Positions 2,234 through 8,903 of a DNA stretch of 10,104 bases are shown here, in pieces (positions within the stretch are counted from its first letter, which is position 1; every line of letters begins with the position of its first letter). Origin of the DNA: Acidimicrobiia bacterium (GTDB lineage Bacteria > Actinomycetota > Acidimicrobiia > Acidimicrobiales > SZUA-35); NCBI GenBank assembly GCA_029857855.1, contig JAOUGG010000047.1, forward strand, positions 1 through 10,104, written 5' to 3'. The notes under the pieces are model-generated. The model did no database searches and was not told the origin of the DNA. It saw only the letters and a list, made by a program, of their open reading frames with translations. Both the position numbers and the translations under genes were made by a program.

Positions 2234-3478
2234 ATGGAAAACGACGAGGTCAGTGTACCCCGGCCCGAGAATGAATCGAGACCGCCGGCATCGTCCCCAG
2301 CCGCATCCTCCACCGCCAGCGATCCGAGCCCCGATCCGAGCCCCGACGAGGCCGTGGCCCCGGTTCCGCCGCTCATTGCGCCGCGGCGGCCGGAGACCCC
2401 CGAAGAGGCCCGTCGCTCCATTCGGCGATGGGTTTTCGGCATGGTCGGTTTCGTCGTGGTCGCCGCTGTCATCGGTGGTCTGCTCCTCAAGGTTCCCTAC
2501 GTGGCCCTGGTGCCCGGTTCGGCCCGCGACACCGAGCCGCTGCTCGCCGTCGACGGCATTGACGAATACCCGAGCGAGGGTGAGCTGCTCCTGCTGACCG
2601 TCCGGTTCCAAAACCGACCCAACTTCTGGGAGTACCTGTGGCTTCGGATGGACGACGACGCCCAAGTCCTGCCGGAGGAGAGCATCTTCGGTGACCGCAC
2701 GCCGGAGGAGAATCGGGAGTTCAACCTCGAACTCATGAACGATTCCAAGCGGGTCGCGGTGGCGGTTGCGCTGGAGCAGTTGGGATACGACGCGGTCCAG
2801 GCCGACGCCGTCATCGTCCAGCAGATCGAGGCCGGCGAGGCGGCCGATGGCATCCTCCAACCCGGTGACTCCGTGCTGGCCATCGACGGCGAACCGACCC
2901 CGGATACGGCGACGCTCGTCGAGATCCTGGGCTCCCATGTGGCGGGCGACGAGATCGACCTGCTCGTCGAACCGTTCGGAGCCGAGGAGACGAAGAACGT
3001 CCAGGTCGTCCTCGGCGATCATCCGGAGAAGCCGGGCACCGGTTTCCTCGGCATCCGCCCCGTCGATCGACTGAAGTTCAACGACGAGTTCGATTTCCTC
3101 GTCGAGATCGACTCGGGTTCGGTCGGCGGCCCTTCGGCCGGCCTCGCCTTCACCCTCGCCGTACTCGACCAGTTGACCGAGGGTGAGCTCACCGGCGGGC
3201 GGACGGTGGCGGTGACCGGCACGATCAACGCCGCCGGTCAGGTCGGCGCGGTCGGCGGCGCCCTGCAGAAGACGGCGGTGGTCCGGGATCTCGGTGTCGA
3301 CACCTTCATCGTGCCCGAAGCCCTCGGTGAGCCTGAGCTGGCCGAGCTGGTCGAGCGGGCCGACGGCGAGATCGACATCATCCCCGTCGCCACCGTCGAG
3401 GAGGCGCTCGAAGCGCTTGCCGGCCTTGGTGGCGACGTCGACGCGATCGATGAATTCGCCACCGCGAATCGTGGCTGA
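2234..3478 (+). CDS. YlbL-like membrane-anchored PDZ/Lon-type (S16) serine protease
   Basis: A 414-residue single-pass membrane protein expected to have its protease domain outside the membrane. Order of parts: a disordered Pro/Ser/Asp-rich cytoplasmic tail (1-60); a membrane helix (about 67-86); the VPYVALVPGSARDT entry typical of YlbL/PDZ-Lon proteins (87-100); a PDZ domain (about 195-275, with GDSVLAIDGE); and a Lon-type S16 domain (about 285-400). The catalytic dyad is visible: Ser301 in GGPSAGLAF and Lys346 in GGALQKTAVV. It lacks the AAA+ ATPase part of true Lon, as is normal for this family. Bacillus YlbL acts in envelope quality control and cell-division checkpoint turnover; a related role is possible but inferred. 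In M. tuberculosis a homologous PDZ protein (Rv3194c) sits beside the UPF0182 gene. Here a 2.4-kb gene lies between the two. Confidence 0.9.
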   Translation: MENDEVSVPRPENESRPPASSPAASSTASDPSPDPSPDEAVAPVPPLIAPRRPETPEEARRSIRRWVFGMVGFVVVAAVIGGLLLKVPYVALVPGSARDTEPLLAVDGIDEYPSEGELLLLTVRFQNRPNFWEYLWLRMDDDAQVLPEESIFGDRTPEENREFNLELMNDSKRVAVAVALEQLGYDAVQADAVIVQQIEAGEAADGILQPGDSVLAIDGEPTPDTATLVEILGSHVAGDEIDLLVEPFGAEETKNVQVVLGDHPEKPGTGFLGIRPVDRLKFNDEFDFLVEIDSGSVGGPSAGLAFTLAVLDQLTEGELTGGRTVAVTGTINAAGQVGAVGGALQKTAVVRDLGVDTFIVPEALGEPELAELVERADGEIDIIPVATVEEALEALAGLGGDVDAIDEFATANRG

Positions 3479-3531: not shown

Positions 3532-3544
3532 TAGCATCGTGGTA
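3532..3544 (+). promoter_or_regulatory. Leaderless promoter of the DivIVA-MuF gene (-10 TAGCAT)
   Basis: TAGCAT at 3532-3537 is followed by 6 bases and then ATG 3544, the same geometry as at moaE. No Shine-Dalgarno precedes the ATG. It gives the gene its own promoter despite only 65 bases separating it from the protease gene. No clear -35 box is seen. Confidence 0.5.
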
Positions 3545-5928
3545 TGTCTATGCAGAGTGACCACGAGTTCGCTCCGACGCAGATCGCCGCCGCTGAGTTC
3601 CCCACCGCCTTTCGCGGTTACGACCAGGACGCCGTTCGCCACTACCTGACCAGGTTGGCCTCCGCTCTCTCCGAAAACGGGGGAGACGCACTGGCCGCCC
3701 TGGCCCGGACCACCACCCTCGATCGGATCGAGGAGCTGGAGGAGGAGAACGACACCCTCAGAGCCGAAGTGCGTGACCTGGAGTTGGAACTGGTTCAACG
3801 TTCGGTCGACGGTCCCGCCCAGGGCCGCTCCGCCGAACGATCCGGTCGAGGAAACGCGGAGGGTGACGACGAGTTCGACGTCGATGTCGATTCGACGTTC
3901 GACGAACACCGTGCGATCGAGCTGCTGGGCCAGGAGACGGCCCGGGTGCTCGAGTCGGCCCGGTCGGCGGCCTCCGACATCGTGAAGAGGGCCGAGCGTC
4001 ACGCCAAGGAGATCGAGAAGGACGCCCGAACCGATCTGGCCGACGCCCGCCGCAAAGCCCGTCGGCTGGTGGCCGAGAAGCAGGCCGAGGCCGAGGAGCT
4101 CGTGGCCAAGGTGGCGGCGGAGTCCGAGGAGTCGGCCACCACGATGCGGGCCGAGGCCGAGCAGCACCGCGAGATGGTGCTGGCCGAGTCGAAGAAGATC
4201 ATGGCCGACGCCGAGGAGCGGGCCGTCGCCGACGAGAAGTGGGCCCAGGATCGGGCCGAGCAGATCGTGGCCGACGCCGAGGCCTTGCGGCAACAGTTGC
4301 TGTCTGAGCTCGTCGTGGAGCGGACCAGGATCCGCACTGATCTGGAGGAGATGCTCTCGACCCGCGATCGGCTGGTCATGGCGCTCGTCGTCGCCCGGTC
4401 GGAGCTCGACGATCTCTCGACACGCCTCGACGAGGCGTCGGTCAAGTCACCGCCGACCACGCCGGAGATCGAGGTCGACGACGCCGACACCTCGGCCCAG
4501 GTCGAGAAACTGGTGAGTCAACTCGACGAGCAGCTCGAGCCGGGAGGCGTGCCGTCGGGTCGAAACCCGTCACGGTCGAAGACGAACGCCTCCGACGGCG
4601 GTGACGATGACAGCGAAGAAGACGATTCGGTCGAAGAGGTCATCGACCTGACGGCCGACGACGACTCGGTGGACACCTCCGGTGGATCCGGTGGATCGGC
4701 CAAGGCCGTCCAGGGCGGATCGGGCAGCGGAGGCACAGGTCCCAAGTCGAAGCGCTCGAACTCGAGATCCCGGAGCAGCAAGAAAAGCACCCGGCGGCGC
4801 AATTCGGGACCGTCCGGCGAGCGCAGCACCTCGTCGACGGCGGCCTCGGCCACCGTGGTCGTTGACGCGGTCGACGAGGCTGGCGCCGCCGATGCCGAGA
4901 CCGATCTTCAGCCGATCGATGGCGACGGCTTGGACGCGGAAACCCCGCAGAACGACGAGTCGTCGGAGACCGCGGAATCCGATGTCTCCGAGAGCGAAAC
5001 CGACGACGCCGAGACCGCCGACCAGCCGTCGGACGACGCCACGACGGTCGACTCCGACGAGGAGGCCATCGAGTTGAGCCTCATCGAGGGGTTCAACACC
5101 ATCGAATTGTCGGAAGCCGACCTGGGATTCGCTCGAAAGGCCGCGGAAGCGGCCGGCCGGGAGGATGGCGACGGATCGGACGACCTGTCCGACCAGATCC
5201 TCGTGACCGTGGCGTCACGGGAGACCGGAACCGACATGGACGGCAACCGGGGTGACCTTCTGATCGACGAGGAGTATCGGGGCCGCCTTCCTTCGGAGGT
5301 GTCGGCCCGCGATGCTGCGCTGGCCGGAGCCGACGATTTCCACCGCTCGCTGAGGCGGGCACTCAACGACGACCAGAGCGAGGTGCTCGACCGCCTGCGG
5401 GTCGGCCGGGGCGCCGTCGAGGTGTCCGAACTGCCCAAGTTCACCGACCAGATCGAACGGTACCTCGACCCGCTACGCGACGGCCTGGCCCCGGTGGCGC
5501 TCGCCGGCGCCAAGGCCGGTGGCCGCCGGGAGGTGCCCACCGGCGTCCTCGACAACCTGGTCAAACAACTGGCCAAGTACATCGTCGACAAGGTGAGGAT
5601 TCCCGTCATCCGGGAGGTCGAGCACTCGACCGATCACGATCGGGAGAAGCTTTTCGAGCCGATTCGCAGCGTCTACCGGGATTTCCGCAACGCCGGACTG
5701 CTCGATCTCGCCGACGACGCCCTTTACGAGTCGTTCGCCATCGGCCTCTACGGGGCCATCCCGGCTGGTTCGGACGTGATCTGGTTGCTCGACCCCCGCC
5801 ACGACCCCGATCCGGTCTGTGAGATCAACGCCGGTCGGACCGGCCTCGTCAAAGGTGAGAAGTTCCCGAGCGGTCACGTGCGGCCGCTGGCCTTGCCGAA
5901 TTGTCGGTGCCTCGTCGTTGCCGACTGA
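3544..5928 (+). CDS. DivIVA-domain coiled-coil protein with C-terminal phage MuF-like domain
   Basis: A 794-residue protein in five parts. (1) Residues 14-41 match the DivIVA N-terminal signature (EFPTAFRGYDQDAVRHYLTRL), which binds curved or septal membrane. (2) A long Ala/Glu/Arg coiled coil follows, in two stretches (58-85 and about 120-300). (3) Residues 305-510 are disordered: acidic blocks flank a very basic Ser/Arg/Lys block (401-420) after a Gly/Ser run. (4) A helical region spans about 585-735. (5) The last 65 residues resemble the end of phage MuF/SPP1 gp7 head-morphogenesis proteins: W747, D750, C759, GEKFPSGH (771-778) and PNCRC (785-789). C759, C787 and C789 could bind metal. There is no TM segment. 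The frame is continuous across the junction. A cytoplasmic scaffold at poles or septum is likely from the N-terminus; what the C-terminal domain does is unknown. No phage genes are nearby. Confidence 0.85.
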   Translation: MSMQSDHEFAPTQIAAAEFPTAFRGYDQDAVRHYLTRLASALSENGGDALAALARTTTLDRIEELEEENDTLRAEVRDLELELVQRSVDGPAQGRSAERSGRGNAEGDDEFDVDVDSTFDEHRAIELLGQETARVLESARSAASDIVKRAERHAKEIEKDARTDLADARRKARRLVAEKQAEAEELVAKVAAESEESATTMRAEAEQHREMVLAESKKIMADAEERAVADEKWAQDRAEQIVADAEALRQQLLSELVVERTRIRTDLEEMLSTRDRLVMALVVARSELDDLSTRLDEASVKSPPTTPEIEVDDADTSAQVEKLVSQLDEQLEPGGVPSGRNPSRSKTNASDGGDDDSEEDDSVEEVIDLTADDDSVDTSGGSGGSAKAVQGGSGSGGTGPKSKRSNSRSRSSKKSTRRRNSGPSGERSTSSTAASATVVVDAVDEAGAADAETDLQPIDGDGLDAETPQNDESSETAESDVSESETDDAETADQPSDDATTVDSDEEAIELSLIEGFNTIELSEADLGFARKAAEAAGREDGDGSDDLSDQILVTVASRETGTDMDGNRGDLLIDEEYRGRLPSEVSARDAALAGADDFHRSLRRALNDDQSEVLDRLRVGRGAVEVSELPKFTDQIERYLDPLRDGLAPVALAGAKAGGRREVPTGVLDNLVKQLAKYIVDKVRIPVIREVEHSTDHDREKLFEPIRSVYRDFRNAGLLDLADDALYESFAIGLYGAIPAGSDVIWLLDPRHDPDPVCEINAGRTGLVKGEKFPSGHVRPLALPNCRCLVVAD

Positions 5929-6005: not shown

Positions 6006-8903
6006 ATGCGCACAATTCGCGATCGTCGTGGGTCGTCCCGTCTTCGTCTGGTCATCGCCCTGGTGGCCGGAGCCGCGTTCGCCCTCTTTCTCTCCGCCAA
6101 CGGAATCGCCGGCGTCTACACCGACTGGTTGTGGTTCGACAAGCTGGGCGTCGGCTCGGTGTGGACCACCCATGTAGGCACCCAACTGGTCATGGCGGTG
6201 CTGTTCGGGCTGCTGTTCTTCCTCATCTTCTGGGGGAACCTGGTGCTCGCCGATCGCCTCAAGCCGCCGGTTCGGCCCAGCTCGGCCGAGGAGGAGCTCG
6301 TCGAGCGGTATCACGAGATGGTCGGCGCCCAGGCCGGCCGGGTTCGTCTCGGGCTGGCCGCCCTGTTCGCGTTGATATTCGGCGCCAACACGTCGGCCCA
6401 ATGGGAGACGTGGTTGCTGTTCCGCAACTCCCAGGATTTCGGCACCACCGATCCGCTGTTCAACCGCGACGCCGGGTTCTACGTCTTCGACCTGCCGCTC
6501 TACTCGTTCCTGGTCGACTGGTTGTTCGCCGCTCTGGTGTTGACCCTGATCGTCGTGCTCATCGCCCACTACCTCAACGGTGGGATCCGGGCCTCGGTGC
6601 TCGATCAGCGGGTCACCACGTCGGTCAAATTGCACGTTTCGGTGCTGATGGCCCTGCTCGCCATCATGCGGGCCGTCGACTACTGGCTCGACCGCTACCA
6701 CCTCGTCACCTCGAACCGGGGGGCGTTCGACGGGGCGCTCGCCACCGACGTGCTGATCCAGGAGCCTGCGTTCAAGCTGCTGGCCCTGATCTCGCTGTTC
6801 TGTGCTGCCCTCATCCTGTACAACATCCGTCGCCCGGGATGGGGCCTGCCGATGGTGGCCCTCGGGATTTGGCTGGTGTCGCATTTCGTCATCGGTAACG
6901 CCTTCCCGATCGCCTATCAGCGGTTGCGGGTGGCGCCGGTGCAGTCGACCCGGGAAGAGGAGTTCGTCGGTCGCAACATCGAGGCCACCCGCTTCGCCTA
7001 CGGACTCGACGGCGATCGTCTCACCCGGGTCAGTCTCGACTACGAGGTAGGTCTGAGCGGCGACGACGTCGAGGAATACTCCGATGTGCTCGACAACGTG
7101 CCGATCGTCGATCAGGTGCTGGCCGTCGACGAGGTGGTCCGCTCGGAGGCCGATCGTCGCCTGTTCAGCTTCACCTCACCGCTCGACGTCGACCGCTACA
7201 TGATCGACGGCCAGCAGCGACCGGTGGTGCTGTCGGCTCGTGGTCTCAACGTCAACGAGGTCGGGGAGGGGTGGGAACAGCAGCACGTGATCTTCACACA
7301 CGGCTACGGTCTGGCCATGGCCGCCGCCTACGACGACGGCGCGTCCCGAGGTCCCACCGATACCCGGGCCCTCGACTTCCTCATCAGGGGGCTGGCGAAC
7401 ATCGAGGTCGATGAGGCGCTCGATGTCGATCTGGATCAACCCCGCATCTACTACGGCGACGGCTTCGGCGGCTATGCCATCGTCGGCAACGCCCGCGAGG
7501 AGGTCGACTACCCGACCGACAGCGGTTCCCAGTTCTTCAGCTACGACGGCACCGGTGGAGTCCCGATCGATTCGCTGCTGCGAAAGGTGGCGTTCTCGCT
7601 GCGTTTCCGGCAGGTTGATCCACTGATTTCCGACACGATCACCGACCGATCCCGGGTGATCTACAACCGCGACGTGATCGGCCGGGTGCGCAAGATGGCC
7701 CCCTTCCTGCGGTTCGACAACGATCCCTACCCGATCGTCGCCAACGGGCACGTGTACTGGATCATCGACGCCTACACCACGACCTCCGACTATCCCTACT
7801 CCCAGTCCGTGTCGACCGAACTCGTCGGCGCCGACCTGTCGAGGGGCTACAACTACGTGCGCAACCCGGTGAAGGTCGTCGTCGACGCCTACAACGGCGA
7901 CGTCGACATGTACGTGACCGATGAGTCCGATCCGATGATCCGGGCCTGGCGGGGGGCGTTCCCCGACCTGTTCTCGGACCAGTCCGAGGTGCCCGACGAG
8001 ATCCGCAGCCACTTCCGGTACCCGAACGACCTCTTCACGGTTCAAACCGACATGTGGTCCGACTACGTCGTTGACGATCCGGTCGACTTCATCCAGGGCA
8101 ACCTCGCCTGGTCGGTGGCCGCCCAACCCCAGATCGAAGCCGAATCCGAGGAGAGCGACACAGTGGCCGCGCCGCCCATGGTGCCCCAGTACTTGATGGC
8201 CCGACCTCCCGGCGCGACCGAGGCCGAATTCGTGTTGCAGCGGGCGTTCGTGCCCCAGTCCGGCGTCGACAGCAACACCACCCGGCCGGAACTCACCGGC
8301 TTGATGATGGCCCGATCCGATCCGGAGAACTACGGCGAGTTGATCCTGGCCACCCTGCCGCCAGGCCAGATCGACGCGCCCGATCTGGTGCACGCCCAGA
8401 TCCGGCAGAGCCCGGTCATGACGGCGTTCGTTCTCGAGAAGCGAGGGGCGAAGGTCGAGTTCGGCGAGATGAGTATCGTGCTCGTCGACGACACGATCGT
8501 CTATATTCGCCCCGTCTACGTCGAGTCGAACAGCCAGACCGCCATCCCCGAGCTGCAACGCATCGTGGCCGTGAACGGCGATCGGATCTTCATGGACTCG
8601 ACGATCGACGGAGCCATCAGGGGAGTGGTCGGCGCCCAGGCGGCGGCTGGACCGGAACCGCCGAATACGACCGAGGGTGATACAACCACGTCGACCGGCG
8701 ACGAGTACAACGTGACGGAGATGTCGGTCGTCGATCTGGTGGCGCTGGCCGATGTGTTGCTGATCCAGGCCGACAGTCTCGAGGACACCTCACCCGAGGA
8801 GGCTGCTTTGCTCCGGGAACAGGCCCGTATCGCTCTCAGCGAAGCGAAGAACAAGTTGGGCGGCGTCACCCCTGATCCGCCCGCTGAGCCATCTGATACC
8901 TAA
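6006..8903 (+). CDS. UPF0182 family seven-helix membrane protein
   Basis: A 965-residue integral membrane protein of the UPF0182 family (COG1615), close to the family's usual 900-1000 residues. Its biochemical role is not established. Seven membrane helices fill the N-terminal third (about 14-36, 58-80, 112-130, 165-190, 207-227, 257-275, 279-299). The family block GVYTDWLWFDKLG sits after helix 1, and NRDAGFYVFDLP lies before helix 4. After residue 300 comes a large soluble region with typical conserved stretches such as IEATRFAYGLD and PYPIVANGHVYWIIDAYTTT. A Thr/Ser-rich linker (about 882-898) leads to an acidic helical tail (about 906-950), also common in the family. Start at ATG 6006 follows from the near-leaderless promoter; the next helix begins soon after. 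It lies in the same neighbourhood as the Lon/PDZ protease, an arrangement shared with mycobacteria. Confidence 0.93.
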   Translation: MRTIRDRRGSSRLRLVIALVAGAAFALFLSANGIAGVYTDWLWFDKLGVGSVWTTHVGTQLVMAVLFGLLFFLIFWGNLVLADRLKPPVRPSSAEEELVERYHEMVGAQAGRVRLGLAALFALIFGANTSAQWETWLLFRNSQDFGTTDPLFNRDAGFYVFDLPLYSFLVDWLFAALVLTLIVVLIAHYLNGGIRASVLDQRVTTSVKLHVSVLMALLAIMRAVDYWLDRYHLVTSNRGAFDGALATDVLIQEPAFKLLALISLFCAALILYNIRRPGWGLPMVALGIWLVSHFVIGNAFPIAYQRLRVAPVQSTREEEFVGRNIEATRFAYGLDGDRLTRVSLDYEVGLSGDDVEEYSDVLDNVPIVDQVLAVDEVVRSEADRRLFSFTSPLDVDRYMIDGQQRPVVLSARGLNVNEVGEGWEQQHVIFTHGYGLAMAAAYDDGASRGPTDTRALDFLIRGLANIEVDEALDVDLDQPRIYYGDGFGGYAIVGNAREEVDYPTDSGSQFFSYDGTGGVPIDSLLRKVAFSLRFRQVDPLISDTITDRSRVIYNRDVIGRVRKMAPFLRFDNDPYPIVANGHVYWIIDAYTTTSDYPYSQSVSTELVGADLSRGYNYVRNPVKVVVDAYNGDVDMYVTDESDPMIRAWRGAFPDLFSDQSEVPDEIRSHFRYPNDLFTVQTDMWSDYVVDDPVDFIQGNLAWSVAAQPQIEAESEESDTVAAPPMVPQYLMARPPGATEAEFVLQRAFVPQSGVDSNTTRPELTGLMMARSDPENYGELILATLPPGQIDAPDLVHAQIRQSPVMTAFVLEKRGAKVEFGEMSIVLVDDTIVYIRPVYVESNSQTAIPELQRIVAVNGDRIFMDSTIDGAIRGVVGAQAAAGPEPPNTTEGDTTTSTGDEYNVTEMSVVDLVALADVLLIQADSLEDTSPEEAALLREQARIALSEAKNKLGGVTPDPPAEPSDT

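Follow-up and report, generated by a model that had tools for sequence, protein, structure and literature searches.

Introduction

Proteins of the DivIVA family are marked by an RGYDxxEVD-like motif placed before a coiled coil, according to passages of a 2023 survey of DivIVA-like proteins (PMC9858780). In these passages, the PolyDIV kinase cluster was termed unique for its additional folded domain (PMC9858780). MuF is described as a common phage domain in part of another report (PMC5576092). The best-studied MuF protein is gp7 of SPP1, a binder of the portal protein that is not needed for assembly but helps infection to begin (excerpt of PMC6316719).

We analyzed a stretch of 10,104 nucleotides from an Acidimicrobiia bacterium (hereafter the window), in which one gene joins a DivIVA N-terminus to a MuF-like C-terminal domain. 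The next gene downstream encodes a UPF0182 protein (PF03699), a family of large membrane proteins. The initial annotation, made from the sequence alone, held that no such fusion was known, and the literature searched (subscription papers and preprints were outside its scope) likewise gave no description of a DivIVA-MuF protein. No link of UPF0182 with DivIVA was seen among the matches listed in this literature. The new findings are that the fusion is common in the class, that its sampled members group together, and that the gene is tied to UPF0182.

Gene Organization and Protein Architecture

The features of the locus are as follows (all on the forward strand).

2234..3478, + strand: PDZ/Lon-type (S16) protease-like gene, upstream (PF05362, 44.2 bits)
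3544..5928, + strand: DivIVA-MuF gene, open frame with ATG start, 794 aa
3544..3708, + strand: DivIVA N-terminal domain, residues 1–55, with the FRGYDQDAV loop (TIGR03544 over its cut-off, PF05103 under its cut-off)
3709..4443, + strand: acidic helical stretch, residues 56–300, coiled coil by eye (sequence and alignment; net charge −25)
4444..5223, + strand: acidic linker with poor conservation, residues 301–560 (alignment A1; net charge −44)
5296..5925, + strand: MuF-like domain, residues 585–794 (phrog_2662 and PF04233 matches of relatives, hhalign, AlphaFold2)
5782..5910, + strand: W747...C759...FPSGH778...C787-R-C789 motif (at least 90% conservation in 32 homologues)
6006..8903, + strand: UPF0182 gene, candidate partner, next gene downstream (PF03699, 761 bits)

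The 794-aa frame contained no internal stop, and its CRC motif lies five residues before the C-terminal end of the protein. The six other ORFs of the window were scanned with Pfam, of which five were annotated as MoaE, HEAT, PDZ/S16, UPF0182, and MsrA, and one had no match; portal, terminase, or other phage genes were not recognized among them. The continuous frame and the housekeeping surroundings reported in the initial annotation were thus both borne out. In a promoter and terminator scan, the minus strand within the gene showed a single terminator-like site, and shuffled sequences yielded an equal number.

The N-terminus matched TIGR03544 (DivI1A) at residues 11–42 with 27.3 bits against a cut-off of 22, which agrees with the DivIVA identity first assigned to it. 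The PF05103 match at residues 11–45 (23 bits, E = 8.2e-5) was under its cut-off of 28; this family was matched by 30 of the 32 homologues (E ≤ 10), the best at 3.9e-19. Inspection showed an RGYDxxEVD-like motif, FRGYDQDAV, at residues 23–31, and the coiled coil after the motif was judged by eye. Of 137 ORFs, many of them incomplete, 74 fitted a rough pattern of the RGYD loop, a count that is therefore given no weight. The match to NF050102 (Wag31) at residues 62–271 was weak and far under its cut-off.

A second DivIVA frame was found in the same genome on contig C452, together with ftsZ and sepF (436 aa; PF05103, 46 bits). Because the genome has this further divIVA beside ftsZ and sepF, the DivIVA-MuF protein is probably an extra, specialized DivIVA paralogue, and the separate gene would leave it free for a special role. 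A third frame with a DivIVA domain was observed on contig C711 of the same genome (L218, 5529–7031; PF05103, 52.5 bits), where it reaches the contig end.

Identity of the C-Terminal Domain

The C-terminal motif was conserved in at least 90% of 32 aligned homologues at W747, D750, C759, G777, H778, P781, C787, R788, and C789, and it is therefore not due to chance. In the same alignment, R589, D590, R605, D609, Q611, L615, and R619 of the preceding helices were invariant, so the conserved unit begins near residue 585. The initial annotation had placed the MuF pattern in the last 65 residues; the motif itself was confirmed, whereas the related region proved longer (~585–794).

No MuF match was obtained for the whole protein, its last 210 residues, or its last 77 residues in Pfam, PHROGs, and NCBIfam, and a PF04233 search of the whole source genome gave zero matches. 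Since the window protein matches no MuF profile, the MuF identity rests on its relatives, profile–profile comparison, and the predicted structure. A search with residues 560–794 returned 52 proteins. The most distant of them, P0052 (E = 3.8e-6), has DivIVA at its start and matched positions 2–111 of the 112 in PF04233 (E = 0.0022; 19.1 bits against a cut-off of 29.6). P0047 and P0050, which were scanned beside it, had no PF04233 match, and this below-cut-off match was the only one to the family among the 32 homologues.

The phage portal-MuF family phrog_2662 gave clearer results. Its post-portal part was matched by four hand-picked DivIVA-type relatives, namely P0052 (E = 6.1e-13) and, from a set of 102, P0176 (E = 1.2e-14), P0188 (E = 4.5e-12), and P0251 (E = 2.5e-8). 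In the domain alignment A2, phrog_2662 was matched at E ≤ 0.1 by 27 of the 30 rows, with a best value of 3.8e-12, while the row of the window protein had no match. In a profile–profile comparison by hhalign with five phage proteins, run without an unrelated-alignment control, the values for the last ~120 residues were 96.6% and 94.3%. Tblastn against phage records returned 23 records, the first-listed of which were mostly annotated as head-morphogenesis or head proteins at E values of at least 0.6. The best E value among the matches listed was 0.01, for a phage portal protein, and some others seem unrelated. The Cys motif reads FPSGHAAPSAHPECRC in a Brevundimonas phage portal protein and FPSGHVRPLALPNCRC in the window protein. 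A putative metal site in the MuF-like domain is possible. Most relatives in alignment A2 have CPDC and PPAH; in the window protein, the first Cys of the former and the His of the latter are missing.

Structure prediction had been suggested in the initial annotation. The AlphaFold2 model of the domain (alignment A2) had a mean pLDDT of 93.8 and a pTM of 0.88. The search of predicted viral structures returned 34 matches at E ≤ 1e-3 (21 with a name and 13 without), and 19 of the 21 named matches were portal, head- or capsid-morphogenesis, or minor-capsid proteins. The remaining two were a "Zeta toxin domain" protein and an uncharacterized one. The query TM-scores of these viral matches ranged from 0.29 to 0.76, that is, loose superpositions. 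Zero PDB matches were found with the domain model at E ≤ 1e-3. The fifth-ranked viral match, A0A6J5S9A2, is a phage protein of 1069 residues named for a Zeta toxin domain, and it is perhaps itself a MuF fusion.

The last ~210 residues (~585–794) are homologous to phage MuF at the family level. It is highly improbable that they form an unrelated helical, Cys-containing fold that merely resembles MuF. Such a fold would suit the missing direct profile match of the window protein and the loose viral superpositions, and helical bundles match many things. However, the profile matches were properly placed and reached 1.2e-14, they extended to 27 of 30 rows, hhalign agreed (96.6%), and one kind of protein dominated the viral fold matches. 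The MuF assignment of the initial annotation was thus upheld for the family in the last 200 residues, by profile, hhalign, and fold, but not for the window sequence taken by itself, which gave no profile match.

Distribution in Acidimicrobiia

With alignment A3, the domain was detected in 219 of 296 sampled genomes of the window's class (Acidimicrobiia, to judge by named relatives), in 176 of the 209 good-quality genomes of the class, and in 133 of 149 genera. The window sequence used alone as the query found it in 136 of the 296 genomes, which is an under-count against the 219 obtained with the alignment. A survey over the phylum with alignment A2 found the domain in 54 of 396 genomes, 36 in the class of the window and 18 outside it. 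These counts refer to the domain only, and prophage MuF might contribute among the weakest matches.

Among 20 wide-flank loci, 17 had the DivIVA part in the same ORF as the MuF-like domain. Among the best 80 of 215 relatives (the named loci), it was present in 66 of the 69 whose ORF start was covered. Cultured bacteria with the gene include Aquihabitans sp. G128 and Aciditerrimonas ferrireducens. The DivIVA-MuF fusion is therefore widespread in Acidimicrobiia, and the domain also occurs elsewhere in the phylum; the survey of architectures across the class proposed in the initial annotation thus turned out in favor of the fusion.

Several observations stood apart. The domain was absent from small genomes of the group f29 (G005, G011, G017, G025, G029, and G033; 1.0–1.1 Mb). 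G010 had a weak MuF match (E = 6.1e-6) with no DivIVA-MuF recognized beside UPF0182, and a prophage or a moved gene is possible. Two records titled Acidobacteriota (L162 and L174) carry the DivIVA-MuF gene, otherwise an actinobacterial one, and are probably mislabeled metagenome bins; L174 falls inside the DivIVA-MuF rows in the phylogenetic tree.

Phylogenetic Analysis and Origin

A pattern derived from alignment A3 (the terminal Cys motif) matched 342 stretches of viral contigs, 52 of which encode a relative. The domain model found the domain again in 52 ORFs of 51 viral loci, none of which had the DivIVA part. The viral rows were selected by the terminal Cys motif, so its presence in them carries no weight.

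Two unrooted trees were built from thinned sets of the 137 bacterial rows, and rows with fewer than 90 filled columns were dropped. In tree 1, a single branch (support 98/98) split 24 DivIVA-MuF rows from 36 viral rows, the window row not being included. In tree 2, which includes the window and omits six rows of five long-branch viral loci, one branch (support 97/86) likewise split 44 DivIVA-MuF rows from 30 viral rows. The DivIVA-MuF rows sampled here cluster together, separately from phage MuF.

The MuF domain was probably captured from a phage by the host and reused. We infer this direction, rather than capture by a phage, because MuF is common in phages. The initial annotation had seen a captured and reused phage fold here, which the analysis supported as probable.

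Linkage with UPF0182

The surroundings of the other loci were examined for UPF0182 and PDZ/S16 genes. All of these loci were picked by the presence of the domain. In all 20 loci with wide flanks, the UPF0182 gene directly followed on the same strand; for two of them, the domain position was taken from the phylum survey (A2). The same was seen in 77 of 77 testable loci among the named ones (best 80 of 215 relatives), three being too short downstream. A PDZ/S16 homologue stood directly upstream in 12 of the 20 wide-flank loci, and a same-strand homologue was found in 56 of the 63 testable named loci from the same best 80. In a simple hydropathy scan of the UPF0182 protein, seven hydrophobic segments lay within the first 290 residues, and another lay close to the C-terminus.

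UPF0182 was sought in 22 genomes and was present in 18. Its locus was inspected in 15 genomes that were negative for the domain. In two of them (G001 and G026), negative by alignment A2, the usual site nevertheless proved to contain a divergent DivIVA-MuF gene. The other 13 have UPF0182 without DivIVA-MuF, so UPF0182 is able to work without it. A PDZ gene adjoins UPF0182 with no DivIVA in five of the 15 loci (G005, G169, G187, G303, and G304), and neither DivIVA nor PDZ was recognized adjoining UPF0182 in seven. In G149, a DivIVA frame of 333 residues without MuF lies between the PDZ and UPF0182 genes (L251, 3327–4325, reversed stretch); MuF may have been lost there naturally, or the arrangement may be an earlier state.

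Proposed Function and Alternatives

We tentatively propose that the protein is an extra DivIVA-type scaffold. Its DivIVA part would, as expected of this family, gather at the curved or septal membrane and place the protein there, and its MuF part would dock the adjacent UPF0182 membrane protein, as the gene linkage and the analogy with SPP1 gp7 suggest. UPF0182 is the natural candidate partner because its gene is the constant neighbor. Against docking, the linkage may reflect co-expression alone, 13 of the 15 loci inspected as domain-negative have UPF0182 but no DivIVA-MuF, and the DivIVA beside UPF0182 in G149 has no MuF. With still more reserve, we speculate that an actinobacterial ancestor fused a phage portal-docking domain to DivIVA and so made a docking station for UPF0182, which would be the first cellular job of MuF and the first partner of UPF0182.

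The domain might instead dock another partner or merely aid scaffold assembly, with UPF0182 only co-expressed. MuF has no known cellular partner and UPF0182 often occurs without DivIVA-MuF, which fits such a role; however, the adjacency to UPF0182 was unbroken in all checkable loci, also outside the class, and chance co-expression should sometimes break, so we regard this as rather unlikely. A DNA-binding role, in which the domain anchors the chromosome at the pole or septum, appears more doubtful. One paper reportedly has a title that calls SPP1 gp7 a DNA-binding protein. DivIVA of B. subtilis helps to position oriC at the pole, as stated in an excerpt of PMC12585849. The domain is acidic, though, with a mean of −4.2 net charges per 100 residues over 137 bacterial rows and −6 in total over the 210 residues of the window protein. 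Charge alone is not decisive on DNA binding, since the 40 viral MuF rows were likewise acidic (mean −3.5 per 100 residues).

The kinship with portal-fused MuF would also agree with a phage decoy, a host copy that would bind the portal proteins of incoming phages and disrupt the assembly of their heads. We consider this very unlikely, because the locus beside UPF0182 is conserved over the class and PADLOC gave no call on the DivIVA-MuF protein. The initial annotation had further raised a phage-like role in attachment or toxin delivery, given that polymorphic toxins of phages contain MuF domains (PMC5576092, in part). Toxin delivery was rejected, as Pfam found no toxin domain in the DivIVA-MuF protein. 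MuF stands at the extreme C-terminus, no phage gene was recognized among the scanned genes of the window, and the protein has no strongly hydrophobic segment (hydropathy maximum 1.47), which leaves an attachment or delivery role hardly credible.

If the protein does act as a DivIVA-type scaffold that docks UPF0182, a part of the phage head has become fixed in a cell-organizing scaffold throughout most of a bacterial class, alongside an ordinary divIVA. MuF and UPF0182, both without a known cellular role, would gain one shared context that can be tested. DivIVA-MuF would also serve as a marker for envelope organization in the poorly studied Acidimicrobiia.

Comparison with Known Systems

In MuF polymorphic toxins, MuF is likewise part of a multidomain protein; there, according to part of PMC5576092, a toxin follows MuF and portal or terminase genes lie near, whereas in the window protein MuF forms the end and Pfam revealed no toxin domain. 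The PolyDIV kinase cluster is also DivIVA-like with an additional folded domain, but in the passages of PMC9858780 it combines several DivIVA-like domains with a Ser/Thr kinase. Phage portal-MuF proteins (phrog_2662) and MuF head proteins (PF04233; SPP1 gp7 and Mu gpF) share a related domain of ~210 residues with the Cys motif at its end. Unlike in these proteins, MuF of the window protein has DivIVA rather than a portal as its fusion partner, lies in a housekeeping locus, and belongs to its own tree group. In the DivIVA/Wag31 family, too, a DivI1A domain carrying the RGYD loop stands at the N-terminus and is followed by a long helical stretch. Compared with this family, the window protein adds a folded MuF-like C-terminus, and its gene adjoins UPF0182, outside the ftsZ–sepF cluster.
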